From Leuctra nigra (lineage: Eukaryota > Arthropoda > Insecta > Plecoptera > Leuctridae), in NCBI GenBank assembly GCA_934045905.1, contig OW203769.1, positions 806,001 to 870,000 on the forward strand: a stretch of 64,000 bases of DNA, in the 5' to 3' direction. The notes under the pieces were generated by a model, which was given only the letters and a program-made list of their open reading frames with translations, was not told the origin of the DNA and did no database searches. Position 1 is the stretch's first letter; every line of letters starts with the position of its first letter. Position numbers and translations under genes: made by a program. Of this stretch, positions 34,181-59,626 are shown piece after piece.

Positions 34181-35026
34181 CGGCATGTAACTGTTTGGAT
34201 AATATTTCTTAAATTAAGTTTGCTCATATTAGCATTTAGCTAATGGCCTATTTTGTGGTTTGAATCTCTGTATTTTTTTATTTTTAATTAATCCATAATC
34301 TAGTGGAGCGGTCGCTCGACGCCAGCCAAGTCGTACGGCGCGCGCACACTCTCATTTAAAAAGGCTGGAGCAACCCACTTTTACTGTAAGCATCAAAGTG
34401 GCATTTTCGGCCTACTGGATCTTAAAATTGGAAAATCTCACATTGTTGCGAAATATGTTAATTTCGAGTTATGGCCCACCCTACAACATATACCAAATTT
34501 GGGAACAATAGGTTACGCCCTTTGCGAGCTAGAGAGCCGTGAAAACAGTGTTTTAGGGCGGTTTTAATCAGTAATCTTAGTAGTAGTAGTAGTAGTAGTC
34601 TCCTGAATTCAAATCCGGTAAACAGGCCACAGCCTAAACGGCTAAACCAATTGATCTCAAATTTTTACCACGTGTGCACTTTTAGCGTCTGATTTGCCCT
34701 CGCTTCCATGACTTTTTTTGTGCCGCCATTTTGATACCGGACGTAACGTCATATCTCGTCAACGGCTGGACCGATTTGAACAAAATTTACGCCAAACGAT
34801 TTAGACGGTCAACTATATAGGTCATCAGTAGCAAAAGACAAAAAATTATGTTAATGAAACCGGAAAAGACGTAATGAAATTTGAAATATATCGATTGGCA
34901 TTTCGGCGACAAAGTTTGATCCGATTATTTTGATATTTATGTAACGTATGTACTTTTGACATATCATGTGACTTGTTATAAAACCAACCGGAAGACGCCA
35001 TTTTGAAACCGGAAGTGACATCATAT

Positions 35027-35873
35027 CGTCGTGTCAGAGTGTAAGTGATCTATCTCCAATTTTTGAAATTTTTAGATTTTTGGTTTAGGTCGTGTATTAG
35101 AATGTACTTGATCTATATGAATTGAAATTCCCTCCAATTTATCACTTTTGCGGTAATTATGAACGGAAATCGTTTGCTCTATGTCCAGTAATCAATGACT
35201 TGTTAGGATGCATTTGCTCTATGTCCGCATCGTCCAATCAGAGCACTCCCTCACGTTCAAACTGTCAAGTTGGCGCGCATCTGGGATATTAGTAAACCCG
35301 CTGTTAATTCCTTAATTCGAAGGTCACGTCAGAATAAGATTAAAATTAAGTAGTTAGATATTATTTGTATGATATATTTACATTTATTTTGTGTGGAATT
35401 GAGTTTTTTGTGTAATTTTATTTTTTTCTCAAATATTTATTGCAATTAATTTTTAATTTATATGAATTACTCTGAATTCTGAATTACTATGAATCACTCT
35501 GAAACACTAACCGATACAATATCTTCAGTAATATTCATGAGAAATAAAAAACATTAATGTACCACAATAGCATTGGCCATTGCATTGATTTCCAAATGCA
35601 GAAGACCTATGTCCACATTTCTAACAAACACTCGCTAAGAAATGTGCACAAAGTCCTATGTCCAACAGGAAATTACCTATTTTCGCTTCGTTTGTTACTG
35701 AAACATCAATGAAACACATAAATAAGTGTTCTCATTCGAATAAGTGATTATATAAACTTACAACTACAGTTATTGTTTATACTTTTATAGGGTTAATAAA
35801 ATCATAAAGTTTGACCCTCTGTTTCTCCGGATGGGAAAAGTTGGACATAGAGCACTTACACTCTGAGGCGACG
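35027..35873 (+). mobile_element. TIR element copy 2, nested in copy B
   Basis: 847 bp, same ends as 26328-27161, flanked by ATAT on both sides. Removing it restores a site like that in copy D at 53035-53050 (reverse strand): GTGACATCATATC then C.CAA.AACGGCTAAA.AG. This confirms the borders and the insertion order. Confidence 0.85.
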
Positions 35874-36619
35874 ATATCTCAATAACGGCTAAATAGATGT
35901 AAACGATTCCAGCGCTAAACAATTAAGACGGTCATCTTTATGTATTATCATCAATAATATTTGCAGTTTCCCATACCGAAACCGGAAATGACGTCACACA
36001 TTTTAATAATCTCACAAATTTACATTTTGATGCAATTAATATACTATTTGAGACAGCTTATAATAAAATGTAATCATGTTTAAATTATAATTCAAGGGGT
36101 CAGATAACTCAGCCGCCATTTTGAAACCGGAAGTAACGTCATATCTCGAAAACTGGTAGACCGATCGGCATGAAACTAGCGCCAAACGATTCGGAAGGCC
36201 ATCTCTATGGAATAGGAACAGTCAAACTAGAATTTTCCTATTTATGAGACCGGAAATGCCGTCAATAAAATTTATAAATTATTATAATCCCCTCCTATAC
36301 AATAAATACATATTCATAAAACTTAAAATGATACACATCATTTATAGATATAAATTCTATGTGGCAGTGCAGTACGTTCAGCAGCTATTTTGAAAACCGT
36401 AGTGTTGCCATATCTCGGAACTGGGTTGACCGATTGGAATGAAACCTTTGCTATTCTTCATAAAAGATCATTTAAAGCAAATATTTAGAACCATACGCTG
36501 TTTTTCATTAGTAGTACCTAACCAAATTGTAAAGGGTGATTTTTTTAAAAGGATTTAGTAATTGTTTATTCGATATGTGTCACAAGTTGTAAGAATAAAC
36601 TAAAAAAAGGAGTGATATC

Positions 36620-37008
36620 TCCATAAAAAAACACTTCGTGTAAAAATACCAGCCAAGTCTCTTCAACTAAAAAAAAATATGAAATCTTAAAATTCTGCAC
36701 TGAAAAGTAGTGATATCAAAAAATTAGCCAAGTCAAAACTTTATTTGAAAATCAAAAAATACTTGGCGCATCGTTTTTTAAGGCATTATAGGTTTACTAT
36801 TATATTTGATGTATATTTTATATCTGGCCTATACTTCTAAGCTATTTATATACACGATGCGCCAAGTATTTTTTGATTTTCAAATAAAGTTTTGACTTGG
36901 CTAATTTTTTGATATCACTACTTTTCAGTGCAGAATTTTTAGATTTCATATTTTTTTTTAGTTGAAGACTCTTGGCTGGTATTTTTACACGAAGTGTTTT
37001 TTATGGGG
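36620..37008. repeat. Long inverted repeat of copy B
   Basis: Arms about 36620-36777 and 36852-37008; loop about 75 bp. Same sequence family as 8766-9165 and 51236-51687. Confidence 0.87.
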
Positions 37009-37149
37009 TACCTAAATACTCCAATAAATACACTTGTGTGTACTGTTACAGCAAGAAGAACAAAATTCAGCTATTTTTTATATAATTTAGTGGACCGTGC
37101 TTCTAGATTTCAGTTGATTTAGGAATATTATTTCCGGGTTTTAAGGAAT

Positions 37150-37214
37150 TATGGTTTGAGGTGTTGCACGTATCCGTGCTCGCTTATCAACGCGTTGCCA
37201 GAGCGTTTTCCTAG
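37150..37214 (+). repeat. Helitron-like 3' end
   Basis: GTGCTCGCTTATCAACGCGT, then hairpin partner GCGTTTTCCTAG|T. Same terminus as the insertion in copy A and as 37955-38016. Confidence 0.65.
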
Positions 37215-37345
37215 TAACTTACAACTGGCAATACACGAACTGGCAATGGAACTGTTTAATATGAGTATCAAGTTGTTGAATAATATTGGAATTGTGATTA
37301 ACGTCAATAAGGGTTGTGTATTTGTAATGGATAAAGGGAGGGTTG

Positions 37346-37545
37346 NNNNNNNNNNNNNNNNNNNNNNNNNNNNNNNNNNNNNNNNNNNNNNNNNNNNNNN
37401 NNNNNNNNNNNNNNNNNNNNNNNNNNNNNNNNNNNNNNNNNNNNNNNNNNNNNNNNNNNNNNNNNNNNNNNNNNNNNNNNNNNNNNNNNNNNNNNNNNNN
37501 NNNNNNNNNNNNNNNNNNNNNNNNNNNNNNNNNNNNNNNNNNNNN
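37346..37545. other. Assembly gap (200 N)
   Basis: Exactly 200 unknown bases, a conventional gap size; real length unknown. Open frames that cross it are not meaningful. Confidence 0.99.
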
Positions 37546-38016: not shown

Positions 38017-38739
38017 TATTGATATAATGATATAAATGTGATCAACACTGTCTGAAGACTTGAACTTGATTTTAATGGTGATCTAGACAAGGGTGACTAC
38101 CCTACATCTTGAATATTATTTTGAAGTTTCATTTTATGATTCATTCACACAATAATAACGACAAATCAACAAAGCAATTCAACAATGACCCTCATCGTAA
38201 TCAAAACGTTGACCACCGAGGAACTTTACGTTGACGACCCTACGCGCCAAGCCAGGAAATATTTACGAGTAATAATGCACAAATCTAAGAGCTGAATTTA
38301 ATAAACATTTGTATCTAGTGGAGCGGTCGCTCCACCCAGCCAAGTCGTACTATACACTCACAGTCACTCAACATACCGTAAATGCCTAATAAACTGAGGA
38401 GCAGACCAAACACTTTTACTGTAAGCAACAACATGGCATTTTCGGCCTACTGGATCTCAAAATTGGTAAATCTCACATTGTTGCAAAATATCTTAATTTC
38501 GAGCTATGGCCCACCCCACTACATATACCAAATTTGGGAACAATAGGTTATGCCATTTGCGCGCTAGAGGACCGAGAAAACAGTGAAATTACACCACTTT
38601 CTGATTCTGAAGATGATGATGATTCTGATGATATCACGAAACGTCGCTATCACCGCCACAGCCTAAACGGCTGAACCGATCGACCTGAAATTTTTACCAC
38701 AAGTGCACTTTTGGCGTCTGAGGTGCCTTTTTATAAAAC

Positions 38740-39365
38740 CAACCGGAAGCCGCCATTTTGAAACCGGAAGTGACGTCATAACTCAAAAACGTCTGGACCG
38801 ATTAGAACGAAATTAGCGCCTTTCGATTTAGATGGTCATCTATATGAAGTATCAATAAAAAAAATATTATTTTCTTATTTTCTAAACCGGAAGTGACGTC
38901 ATAAATACGCAATATTTAACTTATTTCAACAAATTATACTTAAAATACGTACATAATTAACTTACATTGTAACATAGACAATACAATTTATATATTCAAG
39001 GTAGCAGTGTTCTCGGCCGCCATTCCTGAAACCGGAAGTGACGTCATATATCTAAAACGCCTGTACCGATTGCAACTGAACTAGCTCCTGCGTATTCATT
39101 CTGCTATTTATTTGAAAAATCAATTGTGAAAAATGAATAAATAAATTAATGGTACCGGAAATGGCGGCAGGAACCACTAAATGAAACCGGAAGTGACGTC
39201 ATATATTACAAACGGCATGACCGATTTTACGGAAATATAGGGATTAGGAATTCAGATGGTCGTTCATGAAGGTATCAACTAGATAAAACTAGATTGTTTT
39301 CTTATTACCTATACCGGAATTCGGCCGCTATTTCAAAACCGGAAGTGACGTCATGTATCGAAAAC
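38740..39365 (+). promoter_or_regulatory. Array of YY1-like/ETS/CRE composite sites in copy C
   Basis: Five units combine CCGGAAGTGACGTCA (ETS core overlapping a full CRE palindrome); the clearest is GCCGCCATTTTGAAACCGGA at 38750, where a YY1-type motif directly precedes. Spacing is about 120-155 bp. Each CRE is followed by a conserved AT(A/C)-rich link and an AACG..T..ACCGATT block. Binding is inferred from consensus only. Confidence 0.7.
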
Positions 39366-39543
39366 GGCTTGATCGATTAACACGAAACTTAAGCTATTCT
39401 TCTTGGATAATCATTTTCATCTTATACCAAACGCAACTTTTCATAGTAACCAAATCGGTTGAGGCGTATTTTTTTAAAGAAATTAGTCCCTGTTTGGACA
39501 TGTGCTACAAGCTGTATGAATAAACTAACAAAAGAAGTGATAT

Positions 39544-40669
39544 CCCAGAAAAAACACTCCGTGTAAAAATACCAGCCAAGTCTCTTTAACTATAAAAAAT
39601 AATAGAAGAAATCTAAAAATTCAGCACTGAAAAGGAGTGATATCAAAAAAGGAGCCAAGTCAACGAATTTTCCAAATTTTAATCGTACCATTGAAATAAA
39701 AATATCAACCCCCGAGAAATACTTAAAAAAAGGACTTGGCGCATCGTTTTTTTAAAGACATTTTTCTATTCTTAAGCTTATGCCACTCACATACTACGTA
39801 GTTCAGAAATGCCTAGAAAAATTGGGACAAAACTTTCAAATTAAATATTGAACATTCTGTAAAATATTTTAAATTTAAATATAAGTACGCAAAGAAACAT
39901 AGCATTGTCTTACAAGCAATAAATACAGAACAGTTGTGTTTGTGATTGGTAGGTACCTATAGTTTTGTGGGTACATCAACATACCTACTACAGCATTATA
40001 CTTTGAACCTTCTCGCCGTGTAATTAATTGCTATTAATTAACATTTTATACCAAAAAAATTCATAAATTACATAACGTATTACTTTAGATAAAAATCTAG
40101 TCAGTAATTATTTGAGCAGCATGGCTCAGTGCACTAGTCACTTATACAAATCTCATTGACGGCCTTCTTGTAATGAGCGCTTTCGCTATTTCCCTCAGTC
40201 ACGATATTGAGAAGTATGATTGATTAATATGACCCTAGAAATAGTGGCAATAACGAATAGACTAGGCCGCTTCCGTTTATTCGTTATTCGTTTATCCGTT
40301 TATTTCCTCTGAATATTGACAAAATACCAAAACTGCCAGTAGGTAAGAGTACTAGTTATATTAAAACGTAGTATGATTCGTCGATAATGAATGTGATATA
40401 CTCAGGAAAATATACTTGTAGAGTTCTTCCTATACTTTTAGGATAGAAAAGTGTCTTTAAAAAAACGATGCGCCAAGTCCTTTTTTTAAGTATTTCTCGG
40501 GGGTTGATATTTTTATTTCAATGGTACGATTAAAATTTGGAAAATTCGTTGACTTGGCTCCTTTTTTGATATCACTCCTTTTCAGTGCTGAATTTTTAGA
40601 TTTCGTCTATTTTTTTTTTATAGTTAAAGAGACTTGGCTGGTATTTTTACACGGAGTGTTTTTTCTGGG
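39544..40669. repeat. Long inverted repeat of copy C, 0.66-kb loop
   Basis: Arms about 39544-39775 and 40445-40669, starting CCCAGAAAAAACACTCCGTG and ending with the inverse. Arms match over GGAGCCAAGTCAACGAATTT and ACTTGGCGCATCG. The loop (about 39776-40444) has no recognised content. Confidence 0.88.
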
Positions 40670-41129
40670 TTGTAACTAACGCAACATTGAGTTACATTAA
40701 CAAAATGACCAACGAAATATTAAGCTTCGAAAATGTTATAGCACACACAACATACATCTGATATTTTTAAGATGATATTATTGTGAGAACTTGAGACCAA
40801 TTACAAATTCACAAAAAAAGTAGTATGTACCTACTTATTTTTGGTAACAAGAAACATAAATTAAATATGTACTTTGAATTGATTAAGTAGTATTGAATGA
40901 TTGACTATTTACATAAATATGAGAGGCTAGACTCTCTATTAAAATAAGTTTGAAATGTATGTGTCACACTGTCTAACTCTGCTCTACGATGCAGATGCCC
41001 ATGTAGACGATCTGCTCTCAGGAGGAACACAGCTGGCTTCTTCTTCAGCGTCAAGCCCTGTGGGTAAGATACAAACATTAGTGACCAACATTGACAAACG
41101 TCCAACATAATTGAGCGATCGTCTTCATT
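40670..41129. other. Unassigned DNA
   Basis: No supported gene or repeat. Confidence 0.4.
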
Positions 41130-43547: not shown

Positions 43548-45752
43548 TTAGGGCCTATCCCAAAAGCCTACATTTATATTTGCTAGTGGGTCTGAAAGCC
43601 AATTTCCTTTTTTTATTACCTCAACGCACATCCTTCTAAATTTTTCTGTACACTTTTCGTTTCTTATTATCTCTGGGATGCGATTATACAATTTCAAGCC
43701 TTTCGAAAATAAGGTATTGTTTCCAAATTTTGTTTTACATCTAGATACAGGTAAGTTATTTGAATGTCTAGTTTTATACAATGGTGTTTCTTTAGCAACC
43801 TTATTAGTTAAGTAACTCGGCGCTACCCCTTTCGATATTTTATGAATAAATGTCATTGTATTAAGAACTATCCTATGTTTGACAGTGAGCCAACACATAG
43901 CGTTGCTCATTTTCAAAACACTGGTAGATTTATCCACCCATAAAATACTTCGCATGACCTTATTTTGAAGTTTTTGCAATTTGCTTATGTAATTTTGTGA
44001 AAGAAGAAACAATATTGAACTGCAGAAATCGAAATGGGGTGTAATTATAGCTTGACATATATGAATTTTACTAATAATCGGTAAGCTTGTGCAATGTCTC
44101 TGAAACAATCCCACTTTCCGTGATACTTTTTTTATTATATAGTCAGCATGTTTATGAAATAAGAGGAACTCATCTATTATAATACCCAAATATTTGAATT
44201 CTGAGACATTTTCAATTTGGCCATTATCTATGACTAGCTTTTTAGTAGCATATGGGTTGAACGTTTTTCTGTTGACTGTCTTACATATGACCATAGATTT
44301 AGTTTTAGATATGTTTATCTTTAACTTATTAATTCTCAACCATTGTTCGAGCAATTGTATGTCCTCATCGAGTTGCTCATGTACAACTTGTGGGTCTGCA
44401 CCACTGCAAATTATAAGGGCGTCATCCGCATATAGTTGTATTTTACAATGTTTGAAAACGAATCCCAGATCATTAATGTATAATATAAAAAGTAATGGGC
44501 CTAAGATTGAACCTTGCGGTACCCCTACTGAGCAAAGTTTTTCATTAGATCTAGTATTATATAATTTTACTATTTGTCTTCTATTTACGAGATATGAATT
44601 TAACCAACTTAGAACTTGGCCACGGAAACCATATTTATGAAGTTTTAACAAAAGTAAATTTCGGTCTACCGTATCGAAGGCTCGTTTTAAGTCCACAAAT
44701 ACCAGTCTGGTGTAGTAATTATTCTCCATTTTTTGTTTCAAATCATCTATAATATGTGTTAATACTGTCTCACATCCATGCTTTGACCGAAAGCCCGATT
44801 GTTCATCAATAATAATTGATATTTTATTAATATATTCAACAAGTTGTTTCTTTACTACAGCTTCCAATACTTTGTCAATGATATGTAAGGTATTTATTGG
44901 CCTGTAGTTTTCTCCATCAATAGCACTTTGGACTTTGGGCACTGGAGTTATTATTGATAATTTAAGTTTGTCAGGGACAATTCCCCATCTAAGGGAGTCG
45001 TTTATCATTGTTACGAAAAAGTTTGTTGTTTGATAATGAGATAATACTAGTATCAGTATTTTCTTTGAGATTCCGTCTTCCCATGGGGATCCGTCTTTTA
45101 ATTCTTTAATAATCAAACTAATAGTGTCAGCGCTAATACTTTCGAACTCTTCCATAAGTTCATTTCTACAAATTAATTTTTCAAATGATTTCGAAGCACT
45201 TTCGTTATTTGCCGGTTTAATATTTTTCACTATTTCATCAATACTATCAATAAAATACTCATTGAAAGTTTTTACTAAATTTTTGAGCCCATAAACCTTC
45301 TTGTTGTTAAAATATAGTTCAGAATCATTAAATGCATTTTTTTTCTTATAAAATGTTTTTAAAATCTTCCACATCTCTCTTGGCTGTCCCTTTTTTTCGT
45401 CAATCTTCCAGGAATAATATAACCTTTTCTTTTCTTTAACAAGCTGCACTACACTATTTCTCTTTGTCTTAAAATTGGTCCAGTCATCAGTCTTATTTGA
45501 TTTCCTTGCAATCTTAGACAGTCTATCTCTCTCTCGCTGTGCTTGTTTAACTGTTTCGTCGTACCACAGTCTACTTTCATGGCCCTCTCTAATACGTATA
45601 GTTTTGTGTTTAGCATGAACCCCAATAACACTAGTCACATTTGAAACAAAATGCTCCATCATGTCATTTACACTGCTGCTATTCTGAGAAACTGGGATAT
45701 TCCAATCTTGCACTTTTATGTCTTGGATAAATGAGTCCCTCCTTGCTTGGTT
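43548..45752 (-). CDS. LINE ORF2, reverse transcriptase part
   Basis: Over 720 codons open. In the stretch from MQDWN (45713), RT motifs are: GENYRPINTLHIIDKVLE near residue 270; GFRSKHGCETVL near 307; motif A FVDLKRAFDTVD near 339; GVPQGSILGPLLFILYINDL near 397; catalytic YADD near 428. The C-terminus has RHSNNLPVSRCKTKFGNNTL and LYNRIPE..., a typical LINE tail. The frame is the same as the endonuclease part, but a 66-bp stretch between them (about 45753-45818) reads in another frame. MQDWN is therefore not a real start. The catalytic core looks intact. Confidence 0.9.
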   Translation of the reverse strand, partial: NQARRDSFIQDIKVQDWNIPVSQNSSSVNDMMEHFVSNVTSVIGVHAKHKTIRIREGHESRLWYDETVKQAQRERDRLSKIARKSNKTDDWTNFKTKRNSVVQLVKEKKRLYYSWKIDEKKGQPREMWKILKTFYKKKNAFNDSELYFNNKKVYGLKNLVKTFNEYFIDSIDEIVKNIKPANNESASKSFEKLICRNELMEEFESISADTISLIIKELKDGSPWEDGISKKILILVLSHYQTTNFFVTMINDSLRWGIVPDKLKLSIITPVPKVQSAIDGENYRPINTLHIIDKVLEAVVKKQLVEYINKISIIIDEQSGFRSKHGCETVLTHIIDDLKQKMENNYYTRLVFVDLKRAFDTVDRNLLLLKLHKYGFRGQVLSWLNSYLVNRRQIVKLYNTRSNEKLCSVGVPQGSILGPLLFILYINDLGFVFKHCKIQLYADDALIICSGADPQVVHEQLDEDIQLLEQWLRINKLKINISKTKSMVICKTVNRKTFNPYATKKLVIDNGQIENVSEFKYLGIIIDEFLLFHKHADYIIKKVSRKVGLFQRHCTSLPIISKIHICQAIITPHFDFCSSILFLLSQNYISKLQKLQNKVMRSILWVDKSTSVLKMSNAMCWLTVKHRIVLNTMTFIHKISKGVAPSYLTNKVAKETPLYKTRHSNNLPVSRCKTKFGNNTLFSKGLKLYNRIPEIIRNEKCTEKFRRMCVEVIKKGNWLSDPLANINVGFWDRP

Positions 45753-45826
45753 TTAAAAATCTCTTTATAGTCCCAATAACTTTTGTATTTCTTTTTTAAT
45801 GGTACATTACGTGCATTAGATTTTTC
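45753..45826 (-). other. Paired compensating frameshifts in ORF2
   Basis: The endonuclease frame hits TAA at 45816 just after a GGGG-AAAAA run; continuity with family-like sequence (RNVPLKKKYKSYWDYKEI) is found in the next frame and returns to the RT frame after an ATTTTTAAAACC run. This looks like one extra base in the first run and one missing in the second. It could be real inactivation or homopolymer sequencing error. Confidence 0.75.
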
Positions 45827-46562
45827 CCCGGGTTCTTTTAGCTTTATCCCAATAAAACCCATGATCCGAGAGTGCAGTATCATTTAGTGATATGTTATAC
45901 AATTCTTCATCAATAGCATTACAAATTATATAGTCTATTAAGGTTCTAGATATTTTGACAGTTGTATCATCATTTTTTGATTTATTACTTGCAATCCTTG
46001 TAAACTCTGAAACCATCTGTATCATATCATGTTCTGTCAATATATGAAGTACTTCCTTTGCGTAGAATATATTTTTACTCAGGTCAATATTAAAATCGCC
46101 GCATAGAATTATGCTATCATTATTGTTTTGCCTTTTTAGTGATTCAATTATAATTTCCATGCCTTCCAATACATCACGCTTCCTCATTGTAGGTGATATG
46201 TATGTGATGCCAATGGTTTTACCTGCAAGAATACCAGTACTAACTTTAACCGCAAGAGACCATAATTTCTTATCAATAGTTTGTTGGAAAACAACTTTGT
46301 ATTTGATTTCACTTTTTATATACAGTAATACTCCTCCCGTATGTCTAGTACTAGAGTCAACCCGTACAAGATTGAAACCTGGGACATTTATCTCCCAGTC
46401 TTGGATGTCATTAGTGAGGTGAGTTTCCGACATTGCAAAAATCTGAGTCTTACAATTTTTGTATAATAGACAGTTTCTAATCTCATCAATACAATTAACA
46501 ATGCTTTGAATATTTATGTACAGAATATGTAAATTTGAATTTATACTATTACTCTCTTCTAG
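45816..46562 (-). CDS. LINE ORF2, APE-type endonuclease part
   Basis: Reads in frame from the codon after the ORF1 stop (46562): EESNSINSNLHILYINIQSI, so the endonuclease N-terminal strand LHILYINIQSI lies upstream of the first in-frame ATG (46433, MSETHL). APE motifs: SETHL (E of the active site), HTGGVLLYIKSEIKYK, ILCGDFNIDL (GDFN), LIDYIICN and LSDHGFYW (SDH). The frame ends early at 45816 because of a probable frameshift. Expression would depend on passing the TGA at 46563 or on reinitiation that would lose essential N-terminal sequence. Confidence 0.88.
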   Translation of the reverse strand, partial: LEESNSINSNLHILYINIQSIVNCIDEIRNCLLYKNCKTQIFAMSETHLTNDIQDWEINVPGFNLVRVDSSTRHTGGVLLYIKSEIKYKVVFQQTIDKKLWSLAVKVSTGILAGKTIGITYISPTMRKRDVLEGMEIIIESLKRQNNNDSIILCGDFNIDLSKNIFYAKEVLHILTEHDMIQMVSEFTRIASNKSKNDDTTVKISRTLIDYIICNAIDEELYNISLNDTALSDHGFYWDKAKRTRGKI

Positions 46563-46569
46563 TCAGTAG
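46563..46569 (-). promoter_or_regulatory. Candidate leaky stop codon context at the ORF1/ORF2 junction
   Basis: On the coding strand the junction reads TCC TAC TGA CTA GAA GAG. The ORF2 frame is the same as the ORF1 frame with nothing between but this TGA. UGA followed by CUAG is the best known stop-codon readthrough context in animals and animal viruses. The feature marks the stop codon; the CTAG lies immediately downstream at 46559-46562. Confidence 0.65.
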
Positions 46570-48779
46570 GACTGTAAGATTTTTGGTTTGGGTGTACGTT
46601 TACTAACCCGAAGTTGCACCTGGCTTGCAGCTTCTTGCTTCCGAGTGACATTTGGGCCTGACTGTGCACTAGTAGTTTCTGAGTGACGACTCAAGTTTTT
46701 ACTGATGCTAGCGGGAGACACTGTAACACGCTGCACTTCTGGGGACGGCTCTGGCTGTGGTGTTGGTGTCGGTTGTAGGGCTACGTCTGGCGTAGCTGAG
46801 GGTGTCGCCGGTGCCGCTGTCCCTGTCAGCTCTGCGTCTGGCGTAGCTGAAGGTGTCGTCGGTGCCGCTGTCCCTGTCAGCTCTGCGTCTGGCGTAGCTG
46901 AAGGTGTCGTCGGTGCCGCTGTCCCTGTCAGCTCTGCGTCTGGCGTAACTGAAGGTGTCGTCGGTGCCGCTGTCCCTGTCAGCTCTGCGTCTGGCGTAGC
47001 TGAAGGTGTCGTCGGTGCCGCTGTCCCTGTCAGCTCTGCGTCTGGCGTAGCTGAAGGTGTCGTCGGTGCCGCTGTCCCTGTCAGCTCTGCGTCTGGCGTA
47101 GCTGAGGGTGTAGGTGTCGTCGGTGCCGCTGTCCCTGTCAGCTCTGCGTCTGGCGTAGCTGAAGGTGTCGTCGGTGCCGCTGTCCCTGTCAGCTCTGCGT
47201 CTGGCGTAGCTGAGGGTGTCGTCGGTGCCGCTGTCCCTGTCAGCTCTGCGTCTGGCGTAGCTGAGGGTGTCGTCGGTGCCGCTGTCCCTGTCAGCTCTGC
47301 GTCTGGCGTAACTGAAGGTGTCGTCGGTGCCGCTGTCCCTGTCAGCTCTGCGTCTGGCGTAGCTGAAGGTGTCGTCGGTGCCGCTGTCCCTGTCAGCTCT
47401 GCGTCTGGCGTAGCTGAAGGTGTCGTCAGTGCCGCTGTCCTTGTCAGCTCTGCGTCTGGCGGAGGAAGTTGGCTCATTTCATATAGTTGATTTAATGCCA
47501 TCATTTTGTCAGGATTTGTTAAGAGGCATATGTTGGATGGTCTTCGTTTCCTGTCGTTCATTACATTATTGATGCTGTTGATGCTTCGGGGTATTGGTGT
47601 CAGCTGTTGTTGTTGTTGTTGCTGCTGCTGATGTTGAAAGTGGTCTAGGATGATTTGGGCCAGTTTGTTCTTTCCGAATTTGTTTAGGTGTAGGCCTTGT
47701 CTCGTATAGTCCCTTCGTTTTAGGGAGTATGTTGTAGCAAAACGAATTTTTGGATTTCTGTAGCTGTGTATCAGCGTTTTGATTTCGTTGTTGATGGTAC
47801 TAATCCATTTATTCATTTCCTTTGTGCCTTTTCTGTCGTGTCGTTGGGGAATATTCACTATGATAATGTTTGGTTTCGGATTTGAGTTCACTAGTGATTC
47901 TATTGTGTATTTAATATTTGTTGCAGTGTTATTTGTGAAATTGTTTGTTCCTGCAAGTACTACTAGTGTATCGGATTTTGACATTTCACTCAGATTGTAT
48001 TTCTCTATTAACTCCTCAATAGGTGCACTTGGTTTGAATTCGCACTTACATATGATTTCTGTTGACATTTTTTTATTCTTATTCTTGTTGATTATGCTAT
48101 TTATTTCTTCTCTAAGATCTCGCCCATGGCTGTCAGCTATAAGTTGCATCTGAATGGGTAGTTGAGCTTGCTTACTTTTTTCAGTAGTGGTAGGCGTGTG
48201 AGTTCTCACATTTGTTGTGTTGTGGTGCCCTCTGTCGTATGATTTTTGAACTTGCGGCTCCGTCGGTAGGATAGTAGTGGAGTTAGGGTTGGCTACAGGC
48301 TCACTAGGGTTGGCTACTAGCGCTACTAATGGCTCCATTAAAACTGCAGCTACACTTCCGTTTGCTGCTACCCTCATGTTGCTCCCGTTTTCCTTTGCTT
48401 TTGTGCTCGTTTCTGTACACTTTCGACATCTCTGAGGCATTGCGTTTATGTAGTTTTTTAATTCCTCTATTTCTGCTATCATTTCTTTTATTTTCTTGAT
48501 TTGATCTTGGACATTAGCTGCATTCGCACATGTAGGTGCGTTCTGTGCATGCTCTGCTTGGAAATTGCTGTGCCTCGGGCTGTGCCGTACGTTTTCGTAG
48601 CTTATTGCCTGTCTTTTGTATTTATCTGGTATATTAACACTGAAATAGGTTCTTGTAGACTCACCATGCATTTGACTTTCTTCCGTTGCACTTTCATGAT
48701 AGTTTTTCGTATATTTTTTATTGATAAACGTGGAGCTGTAATAGGTTTGTGTATTCACGGGCGCCATCTTGTTAAGCAC
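46563..48779 (-). CDS. LINE ORF1, SGNH/GDSL-esterase type, 738 aa
   Basis: ORF1 proteins of this type bind the element RNA and carry an esterase-like fold. ATG at 48779, TGA at 46563-46565. Residues 90-113 (QDQIKKIKEMIAEIEELKNY) form a likely coiled coil. Residues about 213-385 are the SGNH-like domain: LIADSHGR (nucleophile Ser 217), VVLAGTNN (277-280), GLHLNKFG (His 364). A Gln run follows near 382-391. The rest is 13 tandem copies of a 17-residue Pro/Thr-rich unit (TPDAELTGTAAPTTPSA) and a basic tail ending KPKILQSY. The C-terminal repeat is odd for ORF1 proteins. The catalytic motifs look intact. Confidence 0.88.
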   Translation of the reverse strand: MLNKMAPVNTQTYYSSTFINKKYTKNYHESATEESQMHGESTRTYFSVNIPDKYKRQAISYENVRHSPRHSNFQAEHAQNAPTCANAANVQDQIKKIKEMIAEIEELKNYINAMPQRCRKCTETSTKAKENGSNMRVAANGSVAAVLMEPLVALVANPSEPVANPNSTTILPTEPQVQKSYDRGHHNTTNVRTHTPTTTEKSKQAQLPIQMQLIADSHGRDLREEINSIINKNKNKKMSTEIICKCEFKPSAPIEELIEKYNLSEMSKSDTLVVLAGTNNFTNNTATNIKYTIESLVNSNPKPNIIIVNIPQRHDRKGTKEMNKWISTINNEIKTLIHSYRNPKIRFATTYSLKRRDYTRQGLHLNKFGKNKLAQIILDHFQHQQQQQQQQQLTPIPRSINSINNVMNDRKRRPSNICLLTNPDKMMALNQLYEMSQLPPPDAELTRTAALTTPSATPDAELTGTAAPTTPSATPDAELTGTAAPTTPSVTPDAELTGTAAPTTPSATPDAELTGTAAPTTPSATPDAELTGTAAPTTPSATPDAELTGTAAPTTPTPSATPDAELTGTAAPTTPSATPDAELTGTAAPTTPSATPDAELTGTAAPTTPSVTPDAELTGTAAPTTPSATPDAELTGTAAPTTPSATPDAELTGTAAPATPSATPDVALQPTPTPQPEPSPEVQRVTVSPASISKNLSRHSETTSAQSGPNVTRKQEAASQVQLRVSKRTPKPKILQSY
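46790..47470 (-). repeat. 51-bp coding minisatellite in ORF1, 13 copies
   Basis: Unit of 51 bp encoding 17 residues; one unit has a 6-bp insertion (TPTPSA) and a few carry SV for SA or single substitutions. The frame is preserved throughout. Confidence 0.92.
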
Positions 48780-48999
48780 TGTTAAGCTAAGATTACTATG
48801 TTACTAAATTGAAGGACTAGATTTTTTTTAAACATTTTTCCCTAGACCCTTCTACACATACGAAATAGTTTATTTTAGATTTATTAAATTTACCAGGGGT
48901 TGGTAAATAACAAGGTTTACATCAGTGTTGGTTCAACGTTAGGCCCAAGTTCCGCATCCCAGCGAGACAGTCCATGTTTCAGGTCATTTAGTCCAGAGT

Positions 49000-50930: not shown

Positions 50931-51235
50931 CTTACTTCTAGATGTACTAATTTACTGTTTTCACCTTTTTCACGTAAAAACACTGTTTTTCACCATTGGC
51001 AAGAGGAAGTAGGTTTAACTTGCAAAATACACACAGGAGTGACATGGTACGCAAACGAGCACATGGCAACACTGACCAATGTTACACAATCTTTGACACG
51101 TGGTAGATTTTATGAGCAAGCATTTAAAATGTAATGGAGAGAGAGCTAAAAATAGCTCTACCTACTCACTGAGAAAATTCTGATGCATCGTGGTTTTAGT
51201 CTTTCCGTAGGTTAGAGTGCGACAAGTAGCTATAA
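50931..51235. other. Unassigned DNA
   Basis: Nothing recognised. Confidence 0.45.
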
Positions 51236-51687
51236 CCCCATAAAAAACACTCCGTGTAAAAATACCAGCCAAGTCTCTACAACTAAAAAAAAGCTATGAA
51301 ATCTTAAAATTCTGCACTGAAAAGTAGTGATATCAAAAAATGGGCCAAGTCAAAACTTTATTTGAAAATCAAAAAATACTTGGCGCATCGTGTTTACATA
51401 GTTTAGAAGTATAGACCAGATAGAAAATATACATTAAATATACATAATACATATAGTATAATATACTTGTACTATATTCAACTGAATAAAGAATATCTTA
51501 TCTTATCTTATCTTATTATGCCCTAAAAAAATGATGCGCCAAGTATTTTTTGATTTTCAAATAAAGTTTTGACTTGGCCCATTTTTTGATATCACTACTT
51601 TTCAGTGCAGAATTTTAAGATTTCATAGCTTTTTTTTTAGTTGTAGAGACTTGGCTGGTATTTTTACACGGAGTGTTTTTTATGGGG
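51236..51687. repeat. Long inverted repeat of copy D
   Basis: Arms 51236-51390 and 51533-51687. The loop contains a small retroelement-like tail, GAATAAAGAATATCTTATCT followed by (TATCT)n, absent from the loops of A and B. Confidence 0.85.
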
Positions 51688-52250
51688 ATATCACTCCTTT
51701 TTTTAGTTTATTCTTAAAATTTGTGACAGTTAAATCGAATGAACAATTTCTAAATCCTGTAAAAAAAATCGCCATTTACAATTTGGTTACTACTAATGAA
51801 AATCTGCTATATATTTGCTTAAATGGTCTTTTATGAAGAATAGCAAAGGTTTCATTACAATCGGTCAACCCAGTTCCGAGACATGCCAACACTTCGGTTT
51901 TCAACATGGCTGCTGAAATTACTGCACTGCTTAGAATATATATCTACAAATGTGTATCTTTTTAAGCTTTCTGAATATGTATACATTTTATAGAATGGGG
52001 ATTAGGTATAATAATTTTTAATTTTTAATGACGTCATTTCCGGGCTCATGAATAGGAAAATTCTAGTTTGACTGTTCCTATTCCAAAGAGATGTCCTTCC
52101 GAATCGTTTAGCGCTAGATTCGTACCGATCAGTCTACCAGTATTCGAGATACGACGATACTTCTGGTTTCAAAATGGCGGCTGAAATCTCTGACCCCTTG
52201 AAATTTAATTTAAACATGATTACATATTATTATAAGCTGTCTCAAATAGT

Positions 52251-52865
52251 CAGGGATGGGCAGTATCTAAGATACAAGTATCTTAGATACGTATCTTGAG
52301 ATACAATAGTATCTTAGTATCTGTATCTTAGATACTTTTTAGTAAAGTATCTTATGAATGTATCTAAGATACATTTTTAAAGTATCTTGAGTATCTTATT
52401 TTTCCAAGATACTTAAGATACTTTTAAACTAAGAATGGTCAAAATATTCACAATATTTTTGCAAACAAATACCTGAAACTCCATTATAGACGATTTTCTG
52501 AGAATGGCACGTTAGGTGTCTGGGCAAGCATGAGATCTCAATCTAACTTCCTATGGACTTTCTGAAGAAATTCTTTAATTTGTATTTGTTTCTTTGGTAA
52601 TAAAAAATAAATAATTGGTATGACTATGTTATCACCTAAAAGAGTTTAAAAAATTCTATATTGACTCATATTTTTTCCCGAATCTTAATTCTCCTTTAGT
52701 TTTGAAGTATCTTGTATCTTAAGTATCTTCAAGATACTATAGTATCTTGTATCTTTAGATACTCTTAAATGAAAGTATCTTGTATCTTGTATCTTGAGAG
52801 CAAATAATCAAGGGTCTTGTATCTTGTATCTAAGATACTTTTTTTAAGTATCTTGCCCATCCCTG
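52251..52865. mobile_element. hAT-type MITE nested in copy D
   Basis: TIR CAGGGATGGGCA...TGCCCATCCCTG, perfect over 12 bp. The 8-bp duplication CAAATAGT lies on both sides (52243-52250 and 52866-52873). The uninterrupted site is visible in copy A at 9740 (CTCAAATAGTATA). The interior is mostly permuted AGTATCTTAGATAC words. 615 bp, no transposase. Confidence 0.93.
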
Positions 52866-53864
52866 CAAATAGTATTAATTGTATCAAAATGTAAATTTGT
52901 GAGATTATTTAAATGTGTGACGTCATTTCCGGTTTTGGTATAGGAAACTGCAAATATTACTGACGATAAAACATAAAGTTAACCGTCTTAATCGTTTAGC
53001 GCTGGTTTCGTTCAAATCTGTTTAGCCGTTTTTGGGATATGATGTCACTTCCGGTTTCAAAATGGCGGCTCCGGTTGGTTTTATAACAAGTCAAATGAGA
53101 TATCAGAAGTACATACGATACATAAATATCAAAATAATCGGATCAACATTTGTTGCCGAAATGCCAATCGATGTATTTCAAATTTCATGACGTCATTTCC
53201 GGTTTCGTTAACATAATGTTTAGTCTCTAGCTAATGATAATCCATAAAGTTGACCGTCCGAATCGTTTGGCGCTATTTTCGCTCCAATCGGTTTAGAAGT
53301 TGTTGAAATATAACGTCACTTCCGGTTTCAAAATGGCGGCACAAAAAATTCATGGGGTGAAGGTTAAATCAGACGCCAAAAGTGCACACGTGGTAAAAAT
53401 GTGAGATCAATCGGTTAAGCCGTTTAGGCTGTGGCCTGTTTACCGGATTTGAATTCCAGGAGACTACTACTACTACTACTACTACTATTGAGATTATTAT
53501 TATTATTATTATTATTATTATGAAAACCGCCCTAAAACACTGTTTTCACGGCCCTCTAGCGCGCAAAGGGCGTAACCTATTGTTCCCAAATTTGGTATAT
53601 GTTGTAGGGTGGGCCATAGCTCGAAATTAAGATATATCGCAACAATGTGAGATTTTCCAATTTTAAGATCCAGTAGGCCGAAAATGCCACTTTGATGCTT
53701 ACAGTAAAAGTGGGTTTGCTCCAGCCTTTATATGAGAGTGTGCGCGCGCCGTACGACTTGGCTGGCGTGGAGCGACCGCTCCACTAGATAGCACCTTCAG
53801 ATAATAATATCCTAGTAGCTAATTGGTGCAGTTACCATGCATCGTTAATATATGTATTATAAAT

Positions 53865-56190
53865 ATCTAGTGGAGCGGTCGCTCCACACAGCCAAGTCGT
53901 ACCGTACACTCACAGTCACTCTACATATACCGTAAATGCCTATATAAACTGAGGAGCAGACCAACTACTTTTACTGTAAGCAACAACATAGCATTTTCAG
54001 CCTACTGGATCTCAACTATGAAAAATCTCTCATTGTTGTGAAATGTCTTAATTTTGAGCTATGGCCCACCTGACAACATATACATCACGCGACAACAACC
54101 AGTCATGCCGTTTACGACCTAGAGGGCAGTGAAAATCGTGAAATTACACCGCTTTCTTCTTCTTCTTCTTCTTCTTCTTCTTCTTCAGATGATATCAGAA
54201 AAGGTCGCTGTCACCGCCACAGCCTAAACGGCTGAACCGATCAACCTGAAATTTTTACCACATATGCACTTTTGGCGTCTGATGATACCTTGCCTCTTGT
54301 GATTTTTTGTGCCGCCATTTTTAAACCGGAAGTGACGTCATATATGAAAAACGGCTGGACCGATTAGAACGAAATTAGCGCCATTCGATTAAGATGGTCA
54401 TCTATATGAAGTATGTTACTTAAAAATATAATTTTCTTATATTCTAAACCGGAAGTGACGTCATAAATTTGCAATATTTAGCTTATTTCATCAAATTATA
54501 CTTTAAATACACATATAATTATCTTACATTGTAACATAGACAATACAAAAACACAGTGATCTCGGCCGCCATTCCTGAAACCGGAAGTGACGTCATACAT
54601 CGAAAACGCCTGTACCGATTGCCACTGAACTAGCTCCTGTCTATTCATTCTGCAATCTATTTGAAAAATCAATTGGGATAAATGAATATACAAATAACGG
54701 TACCGGAAATGGCGGCAGGAACCACTAAATGAAACCGGAAGTGACGTCATATATTGAAAACGGCATGAGCGATTTGACGGAAATTAGCGCTATTGAATTC
54801 AGAAGGTCATTCATGAAGTATCAACTAGATAAAACTAGATTGTTTTCTTATTACCTATACAGGAAATGACGTCATTAATATGCTAAATGACACTAAATTC
54901 ACCACTTTATACTTTTAATAGATATTTAGTAAACATACATTGTAAATAATGATAAATTCAAGGTTGCAGTGCTCTCGGCCGCCATTTTATAAAACAGGAA
55001 GTGACGTCATATATCGAAAACGGCTGTACCGATTGCAACTAAATTTTGGAATTGTGTAGGACTTATAATTATGAATTTAATACGACATTATTTTCGGCCG
55101 CCATTGTTAAAACCGGAAGTGACGTCATAAATCGAAAACGGATGTACCGATTGCAACCAAATTTTAGAATTATGTCGGACTAATAATTATGAAATAAAGA
55201 CGACATTATTTTCGACCGCCATTGTCAAAACCGGAAGTTACGTCATATATCGAAAACGGCTGTACCGATTGCAACTAAATTTTGGAATTGTGTAGGACTT
55301 ATAATTATGAATTCAATACGACATTATTTTCGGCCACCATTGTTAAAACCGGAAGTGACGTCATATATCGAAAACGGATGTACCGATTGCAAAAAAATTT
55401 TAGAATTATGTCGGACTAATAATTATGAAATAAAGATGACATTATTTTCAGCCGCCATTGTTAAAACCGGAAGTGACGTCATATATCGAAAACGGATGTA
55501 CCGATTGCAACAAAATTTTAGAATTATGTCGGACTAATAATTATGAAATAAAGACGACATTATTTTCGACCGCCATTGTCAAAACCGGAAGTGACGTCAT
55601 ATATCGAAAATGGCTCCGCCATTGTTATAACCTGAAGTGACGTCATAAAATGAATTCGGCCTGACCGATTTAACGGAAATTTTCGCCAATGAATTCAGAT
55701 GGTCATATATGAAATATCAATAATAAACTAGATTTCTTTGTTCCTAAACTGGAAATGACGTCATAATTAGGCTAAATATTACTAAAAAATTCAAAATTTT
55801 ATACTTTTAAATAGAAATGTAGTACATTTATTTGTAACATTAAAATATATAATCATGAATAGTGACAGTACCTAGTCTAGGCCTCAATTTTTTAAACCAG
55901 AAGTGACGACGGTTTGACTGATTGGAACGAAATTAAAGTGTCATTGATTCAGATGATCATTATAAAATATCAATAATAAAACTACATTGTTCTTATTTCC
56001 CACACCGGAAATGACGTCAGAAAAAAAAATATATATACATACCTAATTCATACATATTTACTATTTAGTTAACTTATGTCAGTGTCAGTTATAAGCACTT
56101 ATAATTATAATTTCTAGTTTGCAGTGTTCTTGACCGCCATTTTGAACACCAGAAGTTATGTCATTTTGGAAATTGCTCAACCCAACCAAT
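53865..56190 (+). mobile_element. Composite YY1-ETS-CRE element, copy E, expanded array
   Basis: Starts ATCTAGTGGAGCGGTCGCTC like C and F but has an enlarged array: about a dozen CCGGAAGTGACGTCA or one-off sites from 54327 to about 56005. No terminal inverted repeat is found; it seems to be truncated near 56190. A (TTC)n tract replaces the GATGAT tract of C and F at 54150-54184. It lies 75 bp from copy D, ends pointing at each other. Confidence 0.82.
54990..55640 (+). repeat. 118-bp tandem units inside copy E
   Basis: The AACCGG/AACAGG start of the site recurs at 54993, 55111, 55229, 55347, 55465 and 55583, exactly 118 bp apart. Each unit holds GCCGCCATTGT, CCGGAAGTGACGTCATATAT, CGAAAACGG.TGTACCGATTG and an AT-rich spacer. 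This is a local expansion of the regulatory-like unit. Confidence 0.9.
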
Positions 56191-57273
56191 TGAAACTAAT
56201 ATTATGTACAAAATTCCAGTACACATAAAATATACTCAAGGCCATCTAGGCTCTCTACCTACATATAGTTATGAAGCCCTAGAAGCAATCTTTGCTAAAA
56301 TAATTTTATATTTCATTGGAATTGTTAATGATTGGTTGAGACAGCATGGGAGATTTACAAATTGGTGTACAGATACACCTACTTATCCTGCAGATACATT
56401 CCCAGATATTCAGTATCTTTATCGAAAAGCGTTCGCTTATGGCTCTGCCTAGTGGGTTCTAATATTTTCTTTATTTCTTGTATCATTATAGGAGAATCTC
56501 GTATTTCCACGTAGGTTCCAAATCTTGAAGGTGTACCTATAGTGTGTTCTGCATTTTATTTGCTCTACAGATTCAATATTGCTGTTGTGATGATGCATTT
56601 AGTATCAAACTTTTAACGTATAAAATCATTGTGAAAATTTTTCGAATACGAGATTCTGCGTCTAAGAAATCAATATATTATACTATTAATCTCGAGTTAC
56701 ACCAAGATCAGCCTTCCTCTATGCCTCTATGCTCCTCTATGCCTTCCTGCTTATGATTATAAAGTAACACATTCTTTTTGAAGGGAAATGAAAACAGGTC
56801 ATGATCGTAAACTGTGGTCTCTTCTCACAGAGGGAATTATTGGAATGACAAAAACGTAGTAGACAGTTTTGAAAACACAAAACTGAACATTAACTTTGTG
56901 CATAATGGTTAAGAAATATATTTTGTACCTATGCAAAACCATTACCAGCGTACCTACGCCAATGGCAAAACTCTATAATATTTTGCAATGAAATCGAGCG
57001 AGCGCCATCCAAATTACTGCCTTCTGGAAATAGAAAGTTTGAAGACCACTATTGCAATCAATAGAGCACGGAGGTATGTAGAGAACTAGTTAAACCTGCA
57101 CAACTTTAAATTAGTTTCTACATTTGTAACAATGAAATAAAGTGATTTGGAAATGAGATGAATGAAGGTTATACACAGTACCTACCTAGTATTTACACTT
57201 TGATTGGATTGTGAATTCAATCTTGTGGGAATTTTTGGAAGGTTTGCAATTTGTTGTACAAATCATTCCTTTA
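56191..57273. other. Unassigned DNA
   Basis: No supported gene. An 82-codon forward frame at 56204-56452 has no recognisable motif. Confidence 0.4.
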
Positions 57274-59626
57274 ATCTAGTGGAGCGGTCGCTCCACCCAG
57301 CCAAGTCGTACTATACACTCACAGTCACTCAACATACCGTAAATGCCTAATAAACTGAGGAGCAGACCAAACACTTTTACTGTAAGCAACAACATGGCAT
57401 TTTCGGCCTACTGGATCTCAAAATTGGTAAATCTCACATTGTTGCGAAATATCTTAATTTCGAGCTATGGCCCACCCCACTACATATACCAAATTTGGGA
57501 ACAATAGGTTATGCCATTTGCGCGCTAGAGGACCGAGAAAACAGTGAAATTACACCACTTTCTGATTCTGAAGATGATGATGATTCTGATATCACGAAAC
57601 GTCGCTATCACCGCCACAGCCTAAACGGCTGAACCGATCGACCTGAAATTTTTACCACATGTGCACTTTTGGCGTCTGAGGTGCCTTTTTATAAAACCAA
57701 CCGGAAGCCGCCATTTTGAAACCGGAAGTGACGTCATAACTCAAAAACGTCTGGACCGATTAGAACGAAATTAGCGCCATTCGATTTAGATGGTCATCTA
57801 TATGAAGTATCAATAAAAAAAATATTATTTTCTTATTTTCTAAACCGGAAGTGACGTCATAAATACGCAATATTTAACTTATTTCAACAAATTATACTTA
57901 AAATACGTACATAATTAACTTACATTGTAACATAGACAATACAATTTATATATTCAAGGTAGCAGTGTTCTCGGCCGCCATTCCTGAAACCGGAAGTGAC
58001 GTCATATATCTAAAACGCCTGTACCGATTGCAACTGAACTAGCTCCTGCGTATTCATTCTGCTATTTATTTGAAAAATCAATTGTGAAAAATGAATAAAT
58101 AAATTAATGGTACCGGAAATGGCGGCAGGAACCACTAAATGAAACCGGAAGTGACGTCATATATTACAAACGGCATGACCGATTTTACGGAAATATAGGG
58201 ATTAGGAATTCAGATGGTCGTTCATGAAGGTATCAACTAGATAAAACTAGATTGTTTTCTTATTACCTATACCGGAATTCGGCCGCTATTTCAAAACCGG
58301 AAGTGACGTCATGTATCGAAAACGGCTTGATCGATTAACACGAAACTTAAGCTATTCTTCTTGGATAATCATTTTCATCTTATACCAAACGCAACTTTTC
58401 ATAGTAACCAAATCGGTTGAGGCGTATTTTTTTAAAGAAATTAGTCCCTGCTCGGACATGTGCTACAAGCTGTATGAATAAACTAACAAAAGAAGTGATA
58501 TCCCAGAAAAAACACTCCGTGTAAAAATACCAGCCAAGTCTCTTTAACTATAAAAAAAAATAGAAGAAATCTAAAAATTCAGCACTGAAAAGGAGTGATA
58601 TCAAAAAAGGAGCCAAGTCAACGAATTTTCCAAATTTTAATCGTACCATTGAAATAAAAATATCAGCCCCCGAGAAATACTTAAAAAAAGGACTTGGCGC
58701 ATCGTTTTTTTAAAGACATTTTTCTATTCTTAAGCTTATGCCACTCACATACTACGTAGTTCAGAAATGCCTAGAAAAATTGGGACAAAACTTTCAAATT
58801 AAATATTGAACATTCTGTAAAATATTTTAAATTTAAATATAAGTACGCAAAGAAACATAGCATTGTCTTACAAGCAATAAATACAGAACAGTTGTGTTTG
58901 TGATTGGTAGGTACCTATAGTTTTGTGGGTACATCAACATACCTACTACAGCATTATACTTTGAACCTTCTCGCCGTGTAATTAATTGCTATTAATTAAC
59001 ATTTTATACCAAAAAAAATCATAAATTACATAACGTATTACTTTAGATAAAAATCTAGTCAGTAATTATTTGAGCAGCATGGCTCAGTGCACTAGTCACT
59101 TATACAAATCTCATTGACGGCCTTCTTGTAATGAGCGCTTTCGCTATTTCCCTCAGTCACGATATTGAGAAGTATGATTGATTAATATGACCCTAGAAAT
59201 AGTGGCAATAACGAATAGACTAGGCCGCTTCCGTTTATTCGTTATTCGTTTATCCGTTTATTTCCTCTGAATATTGACAAAATACCAAAACTGCCAGTAG
59301 GTAAGAGTACTAGTTATATTAAAACGTAGTATGATTCGTCGATAATGAATGTGATATACTCAGGAAAATATACTTGTAGAGTTCTTCCTATACTTTTAGG
59401 ATAGAAAAGTGTCTTTAAAAAAACGATGCGCCAAGTCCTTTTTTTAAGTATTTCTCGGGGGCTGATATTTTTATTTCAATGGTACGATTAAAATTTGGAA
59501 AATTCGTTGACTTGGCTCCTTTTTTGATATCACTCCTTTTCAGTGCTGAATTTTTAGATTTCTTCTATTTTTTTTTATAGTTAAAGAGACTTGGCTGGTA
59601 TTTTTACACGGAGTGTTTTTTCTGGG
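57274..59626 (+). mobile_element. Composite YY1-ETS-CRE element, copy F
   Basis: 2353 bp, nearly identical to copy C over its whole length. Differences seen: a 3-bp change in the GATGAT tract, CTCGGAC for TTTGGAC near 58453, and a few poly-A length changes. It has the same palindrome, five composite sites and 1.1-kb inverted repeat (58502-59626). Different flanks from C. Confidence 0.9.
58502..59626. repeat. Long inverted repeat of copy F
   Basis: Arms about 58502-58735 and 59403-59626, loop nearly identical to that of copy C. Compensating arm changes were not assessed in full. Confidence 0.87.

Follow-up and report, generated by a model that had tools for sequence, protein, structure and literature searches.

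Tandem YY1 and ETS-CRE sites in an abundant rolling-circle transposon of Leuctra nigra: a candidate promoter array shared with a Rep-helicase gene

A 64-kb stretch of the 536-Mb Leuctra nigra genome (contig OW203769.1, C8:806001-870000; hereafter the window) contains six copies of a dispersed element whose body is a tandem array of YY1 sites and of ETS sites fused to a cyclic AMP response element (ETS-CRE sites). All six copies are non-autonomous and belong to a rolling-circle (Helitron-superfamily) transposon, and their left end and array recur elsewhere in the genome upstream of an open reading frame (ORF) for a Rep-helicase (RepHel) protein. An initial annotation had recognized copies A (8766..11645, minus strand), B (34298..37008, plus), C (38313..40669, plus), D (51236..53789, minus), E (53865..56190, plus), and F (57274..59626, plus); these coordinates and strands all proved correct, and one left end is common to the copies, with one change in copy B.

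The array units carry two words, CCGGAAGTGACGTCA and GCCGCCATTTTG. The former is identical at 15/15 bases to the published cooperative GABPalpha/CREB (ETS-CRE) site, and the latter at 12/12 bases to the published long YY1 site, a high-affinity motif known from Peg3 and Xist (PMC11602158). The claim that the units match YY1/pho and an ETS site fused to a CRE thus stands letter for letter. When the window was scanned for the ETS-CRE 15-mer (at most two mismatches) and the YY1 12-mer (at most one), 39 ETS-CRE sites were found against 0.03 expected, 19 of them exact and all 39 within the six copies, along with 15 YY1 sites against 0.25 expected. Five ETS-CRE sites lie in each of copies A, B, C, D, and F, those of C and F being all exact, whereas copies B and D hold no exact 15-mer. 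Copy E has 14 sites, so that the annotated range of 5-13 units per element is right for five copies and exceeded in the sixth. In copy C, the array (38749..39353, plus) begins with a YY1 site at 38749-38760, separated by 3 bp, as in the best units generally, from the first of the ETS-CRE sites at 38764, 38887, 39032, 39187, and 39339. The array of copy F, which is 99.4% identical to copy C, lies at 57707..58311 (plus), with YY1 at 57707-57718 and ETS-CRE at 57722, 57845, 57990, 58145, and 58297; that of copy E (54311..56019, plus) is the most expanded of the six and includes 118-bp tandem units at 54975-55610. Cooperative binding of GABPalpha and CREB1 requires that ETS and CRE overlap as in CCGGAAGTGACGTCAC (PMC3464117, PMC4555227), while CCGGAAA-type sites gain just two-fold from CREB1 (PMC4555227, section 13); the CCGGAAA type is the form of most units without YY1. 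A full-text literature search for GGAAGTGACGTCA returned no transposon paper by title, and PMC3464117 and PMC4555227 treat this very overlap.

Two copies are interrupted by nested insertions. Copy A has a stretch at ~10350-11362 with no counterpart in the other copies of the window, containing an array of three 186-bp units, and in copy B, the insert dividing the array (35016-35877) shares 93% identity with 26317-27165. Copies D and E (51236-56190) stand head to head with their left ends 75 bp apart, and a further such pair, spaced ~90 bp, was seen at L027 4175-4305; these pairs may reflect insertion beside existing copies.

The common left end, (A)TCTAGTGGAGCGGTCGCTCCAC, contains an 18-nt imperfect palindrome and is followed within 2 bp by a subterminal repeat of 10-11 bp, (C)CAGCCAAGTC, which is present in inverted orientation at both ends of the element. 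In copy C, the left end occupies 38314..38335 (plus; 22 bp, 8-bp palindrome stem) and precedes the subterminal repeat CCAGCCAAGTC; the others are at 11623-11644 (A), 34299-34320 (B), 53767-53788 (D), 53866-53887 (E), and 57275-57296 (F). An A precedes TC in 46/46 left ends, TC being fixed by the search word, and this A may be the element's own base. The right end, where present, reads GACTTGGCTGG-TATTTTT-ACACGGAGTGT-TTTTT(A/C)TGG(GG) with small variants and recurs inverted ~160-1,240 bp further inside, which produces a long inverted repeat. The outer arm of copy C with its right end (40437..40677, plus) runs through the subterminal repeat GACTTGGCTGG, TATTTTT, ACACGGAGTGT with a 4-bp stem, and TTTTTCTGGG, and its similarity extends 8 bp past the end first assigned to this copy; the inner arm (39536..39775, plus) holds the right-end sequence in reverse. 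The arms of copy F lie at 58499..58733 (inner) and 59395-59629 (outer) on the plus strand, those of copy A at 8765-8921 and 9010-9166 (8765..9166, minus; 97% complementary), those of copy B at 36626-36774 and 36854-37002 (plus; 98% complementary), and those of copy D at 51224-51395 and 51527-51699 (minus). In copy E, neither right end nor inverted repeat was found, in agreement with the annotated presence of the repeat in five of six copies. Among 19 right ends, 12 finish in ATGG(G)(G) and 7 in CTGG(G), one of the latter stopping at CTGG; the next base is T in 14 and A in 5, and the terminal hairpin stem is just 4 bp. The number of terminal Gs in these ends ranges from GG to GGGG, and the inner arm mostly keeps three or four, which would fit imprecise copying of the right end. 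Comparison of 19 joined flank pairs with the limited sequence retrieved gave one related unfilled site, gapped at the junction.

Exact matches in the whole genome number 29,778 for the ETS-CRE 15-mer, 12,504 for the 22-bp left end, and 11,040 for the 32-bp right end, of which an intact element has two; YY1 followed after 0-6 bp by ETS-CRE occurs at 5,850 joint sites, and each reversed control word at none. The 12,504 left ends bear out the initial view of a dispersed mobile element. Nineteen elements with both ends are 1.3-2.9 kb long, so the family would cover very roughly 16-36 Mb if each exact left end marked a full element, an estimate that includes truncated left ends and excludes inexact ones. 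The number of sites per element varies from 1 to 14. The 15-mer and its overlap are identical to those of the GABPalpha/CREB1 motif of mammalian proximal promoters (PMC3464117, PMC4555227); the human table row for this 15-mer gives 7 (PMC3464117), in contrast to the count in Leuctra, where the word lies within a transposon.

A six-frame search for Helitron_like_N identified 78 places in the genome, of several kinds, seven of them with an open frame longer than 2,200 amino acids. The flanks of three of these seven were read (C12:1661436, C5:28336189, and C7:28573867), and in 3/3 the left end and array come first and the RepHel ORF follows. Identity between these copies begins at the left end, 1-3 bp before TC (L064:2371-2373, L066:324-326, and the reverse of L068:340), and stays at 99.9-100% across the left end, the array, and the portion of the ORF read (100% over 831 bp between C12 and C5; 99.9% over 829 bp between C12 and C7 and over 2,962 bp between C5 and C7). 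The RepHel copies are 98.2-98.6% identical to copy A of the window over the first 281 bp and 91% identical to copy D over 913 bp, four units included. The C12 copy has ETS-CRE sites at 431, 554, 702, and 824 bp with 0, 1, 1, and 1 mismatches, followed by three decayed sites, and an exact YY1 site accompanies the first and third; its ATG lies ~2.77 kb from the left end. Splice-like words, GGAG/GTAAGT, TTTTCCAG, and TTTTCTAG, were read by eye in the gap between array and ATG. A sigma-70 promoter scan of this gap was not used, as a bacterial consensus is meaningless in an animal. The initial annotation had proposed that the element spreads ready-made promoter/enhancer arrays or exploits the factors concerned. 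Its mobile element and motifs were borne out; because the array lies upstream of the gene in the transposase-coding copies, we favor the transposon's own promoter over a spreading of host promoters. We put at roughly 0.6 the probability that the array is the promoter/enhancer of the RepHel gene itself, retained in non-coding copies that would be mobilized by its enzyme.

The array is built of two unit types. A YY1 site is found in about every second unit only, and most other units have the ETS-CRE site as CCGGAAATGACGTCA; in element orientation, the units alternate at spacings of ~123 and ~145 bp. Type I has YY1 3 bp upstream of ETS-CRE and a conserved block downstream, and type II has ETS-CRE alone. 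ETS position 7 is G in 41/41 units with a YY1 core and A in 36/57 without, as counted in 98 non-redundant contexts collected by motif likeness (264 before collapsing those at least 90% alike, with L066 and L068 omitted as repeats of L064). In four pairings of type I (units 1 and 3) with type II (units 2 and 4) of a RepHel copy, 17-18/20 bases agree in the motif window, whereas agreement in the flanks is about that of chance (12-19/57 upstream and 18-23/73 downstream). These units were located via the motif, which makes their motif-window agreement partly a matter of selection; their recurrence at regular spacing is not. Likewise, the units of our unit profile, which omits copy F, were gathered by motif likeness, hence their motif conservation is partly selected, and the loci L009-L028 were picked for holding an exact motif.

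Conservation was judged on 20 consecutive left ends on C1 that were taken with the motif ignored (L044 and L045 being overlapping neighbors), with alignment columns of more than 40% gaps excluded. Fifteen of the 20 have one or more ETS-CRE sites (no more than two mismatches) within 1.3 kb. Across three copies of the site, the 45 ETS-CRE columns have a mean majority identity of 0.813 against 0.708 for the other array columns, a value matched by 0/297 circular shifts. In the comparison of motif with spacer that the initial annotation had named as able to refute it, the ETS-CRE sites came out better conserved, which does not refute it, and the YY1 sites gave a mixed result, the one in unit 1 exceeding its flanks (0.837 versus 0.761). 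These figures bear on the view that the array consists of satellite-like tandem repeats of a Helitron-type element, grown by slippage or rolling-circle copying and functionless in the copies, the motif being a fossil of the source promoter. Central tandem repeats are indeed common in HINE-type elements (PMC4067079, PMC7492417), and the wide range of site number, the left ends devoid of an array, and the uneven YY1 conservation speak for this view. However, the excess of ETS-CRE over spacers in elements selected by left end, together with the motif common to two unit types with unrelated flanks, makes this account unlikely.

Several observations weigh against a promoter role of the array, or against its retention for that role. 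The YY1 site in unit 3 is not above its flanks (0.658 versus 0.683), and the three ETS-CRE copies rank in the middle of the alignment, with 231, 185, and 384 of 687 windows higher; this middling rank arises because the left 290 bp, better conserved than the array, is so highly conserved. The type I downstream block CGGCTGGACCGATTGGAACGAAATT, which served as the collecting anchor, is as well conserved as the motif (0.768 versus 0.764, from 156 units reduced to 88 by collapsing those at least 93% alike). Five of the 20 left ends lack a forward array within 1.3 kb, being shortened, giving way to other sequence that is partly masked in one case, or abutting a neighboring copy (L045). Conservation among copies could also be inherited from active sources. 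In the RepHel copies, the ATG stands 1.5-1.9 kb past the array, and no right end was found in the ~3 kb read past the ORF, so it is the array and the exactly shared left end that tie them to the non-autonomous copies. The left 290 bp was also considered as a coding exon (open frame IFGLLDLKIGKSHIV...), which was rejected, as the substitutions lack codon periodicity and a Pfam search with the copy A frame gave no hit. Finally, the conservation might stem from host selection on many copies co-opted as enhancers, for which the left ends and joint sites across the genome would supply ample material; with some copies as young as the C/F pair and the RepHel copies, there has been little time for it, and we regard this as very improbable.

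The transposase of the family is most likely P0001, a RepHel protein of 2341 amino acids whose ORF lies at L063:2123-9145. Its Pfam domains are DUF6570, Helitron_like_N (PF14214, 940-1115), PIF1 (PF05970, 1545-1771), and a C-terminal UCH (E 7e-14) of USP type at 2077-2336; the Pfam scan found no endonuclease (no Exo_endo_phos). By sequence, the helicase is similar to PIF1 and Helraiser chains of solved structure, and the C-terminus to USP36, 12, and 46. The N-terminus has ~ten basic 15-residue repeats, as read by eye, which might form a DNA-binding array. Matches to STPR repeats, which are DNA-binding, were obtained for the sister families L061 and L062 but not for P0001 itself. Repeats of this kind raise the possibility that the array acts in transposition, its units being recognition or replication sites for RepHel and their likeness to ETS-CRE and YY1 sites coincidental; the closeness of the units to a terminus and the second conserved block of type I fit such a role. 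Coincidence would nevertheless have to account for full identity to two animal promoter motifs, each defined independently of the other, in the very overlap used cooperatively by GABPalpha and CREB1. In L061 and L062, each read as a single 10-kb copy, repeats of this kind occur without any ETS-CRE site within three mismatches. We therefore consider a role in transposition improbable and retain the promoter reading.

Other candidate partners were rejected. L061 and L062 (family b) have no ETS-CRE site and no ends, apart from one left-like end with two mismatches beyond the L061 ORF, and the canonical L049 and L050 show no ETS-CRE site or ends in ~3.5 kb each around the Rep domain. Viral carriers found no support either, as the 30-mer and the left end had 0 exact matches in IMG/VR, from which records very near this genome are possibly excluded. 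P0001 has 139 relatives, 120 of them listed, and many carry USP, OTU, or Ulp1 domains. Among those listed are proteins of ants, wasps, whitefly, psyllids, a lacewing, Parnassius, sturgeon, and a sponge, endonuclease-bearing fish proteins being more distant; among the matches listed, PF00443 occurs with Rep-helicase in ants, Nasonia, whitefly, psyllids, and sturgeon and with helicase in the sponge. In a quick tree of 30 rows selected from 127 (121 proteins and six of our own ORFs), P0001 falls inside a 17-row group (SH-aLRT 100) to which the fish rows with endonuclease do not belong. Sixteen rows of this group yielded the Rep motif, which reads RGxQHxH in 13, 11 of them RGxQHFH; it is RGSPHxH in the endonuclease-bearing fish rows and RGLPHAH in L049 and L050. 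To judge from these domain combinations, the clade of P0001 seems to exchange ubiquitin/SUMO proteases.

The partner thus has the Rep (HUH) domain, with an HFH motif, and the Pif1-type helicase of a rolling-circle transposon. Canonical Helitrons have RGLPHxH as Rep motif (PMC4067079), start with TC inserted after a host A, and end in CTRR with a 3' hairpin (PMC6544945). P0001 differs from them in its motif, RGNQHFH, and the element lacks the 3' CTRR and hairpin feature. Helentrons and HINEs have subterminal inverted repeats (SubTIRs) that are 12-15 bp long and lie 2-4 nt inside the 5' end and 38-60 bp before the 3' end, with a palindrome at 8-35 bp from the 3' end (PMC4067079). The right side of our element fits this layout, its repeat lying at ~40 bp and its hairpin at 10-22 bp, whereas the left repeat begins ~23 nt in, behind the palindrome. 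The F/Y-x-R before the Rep motif is present (FWR), but the motif is not RGSPHxH, and the partner has UCH in place of the C-terminal AP endonuclease (PMC4067079). Nor are the flanks T: on the left they are A in 46/46, or T in 26, A in 18, and C in 2 if the A belongs to the element, and on the right T in 14 and A in 5. The HINE/Helentron label was rejected on these four points, namely endonuclease, T flanks, Rep signature, and position of the left subterminal repeat. As it misses features of both canonical Helitrons and Helentrons/HINEs, we place the element beside both, in the RGxQHFH clade.

In the mechanism that we propose, the array would serve as the 5' regulatory region (promoter/enhancer) of the RepHel gene, its tandem units offering YY1 and precisely overlapped ETS-CRE sites to host YY1/pho, GABP-like ETS, and CREB proteins jointly. 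The host genome has 14 exon matches to ETS-domain genes and one to CREB pKID. Transcription would be driven where these factors act, such as in growing or germline cells. The non-coding copies would have shed the gene but retained the array and both ends, with expansion of the array in some lineages (copy E), and would thereby have scattered the exact left ends throughout the genome, three quarters of the sampled ones still with an array. Factor binding, promoter activity, and mobilization in trans by this RepHel enzyme are what we infer from the sequence. The array may also help the non-coding copies, for example by accessibility, with which the ETS-CRE conservation is consistent. A more far-reaching version is advanced tentatively, and we think it somewhat doubtful: the array would be an L1-convergent tandem promoter of housekeeping type (YY1 and GABP-CREB), selected also in non-coding copies because it opens germ-cell chromatin for transposition, with the host being seeded with thousands of ready-made promoter/enhancer arrays as a result.

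The 5'UTR of mouse LINE-1 Tf consists of tandem promoter monomers, each with a YY1 site, and YY1 mediates synergy between monomers (PMC11602158). The Leuctra family is similar in that tandem promoter-factor units, YY1 sites included, lie 5' of the transposon gene in 3/3 RepHel copies. It differs in being a rolling-circle DNA transposon, not a mammalian retrotransposon, and in carrying the array mostly on non-coding copies; the YY1 word of L1 Tf is GTCGCCATCTTG, and the excerpts of PMC11602158 describe no fused ETS-CRE. Our preferred reading is that the array and the YY1-bearing monomers of mouse L1 are a case of convergence. HINE/DINE-1 (PMC4067079) and the oyster Cg_HINE (PMC7492417) are likewise non-autonomous rolling-circle elements of high copy number; they too have subterminal inverted repeats and a palindrome at the 3' side, and many contain tandem repeats in the center. 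Unlike them, the present element has a left palindrome outside the subterminal repeat, an A before TC, repeats with exact ETS-CRE/YY1 sites, and a partner that bears a deubiquitinase domain and RGNQHFH in place of an endonuclease and RGSPHxH. Helitrons encoding VTD and OTU deubiquitinases have been reported (PMC9741609); P0001 is similarly a RepHel fused with a deubiquitinase, but of the C-terminal UCH/USP type (PF00443) and without endonuclease, and USP is not named for Helitrons in the excerpts of that paper. Tandem-repeat non-autonomous rolling-circle elements, L1 promoter monomer arrays, and deubiquitinase-bearing Helitrons are thus already known, whereas the combination, with the exact YY1/GABP-CREB grammar in a rolling-circle element, had no match in the portions of open-licence literature covered by our search. 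It provides a testable promoter mechanism for one clade of these transposons. With thousands of arrays of 1-14 sites, the genome also amounts to a naturally replicated experiment in which the effects of site number and single bases on chromatin and neighboring genes could be read. It also bears on whether selfish elements converge on housekeeping-promoter grammar (YY1, GABP, CREB) across mammals and other animals.

The window contains further repetitive sequences. A stretch of 200 N at 37346-37545 is an assembly gap or masked stretch. The 186-bp array nested in copy A (10719-11277, three units) is related to sequence upstream of the RepHel ORF of L061 (family b) and may stem from the insertion of a second rolling-circle family. 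Transposase fragments lie at 12425-12928 (TNP-like RNase H, which we take to be of P/THAP9 type) and 16556-17038 (DDE_Tnp_4, presumably of Harbinger type). At 21546-22446, a 33-bp minisatellite is repeated 27 times within a long open frame. The end of this frame gives a weak, sub-threshold match to a Tf2-type SH3 domain, and the frame is perhaps the tail of an LTR retrotransposon polyprotein. A non-LTR retrotransposon on the minus strand (43548-48800) encodes reverse transcriptase and endonuclease; its upstream ORF shows a GDSL-like match below threshold and contains a 51-bp tandem repeat that runs in frame (46784-47461). A 94-bp tandem repeat of 15 units with 96% matches occupies 2854-4259.

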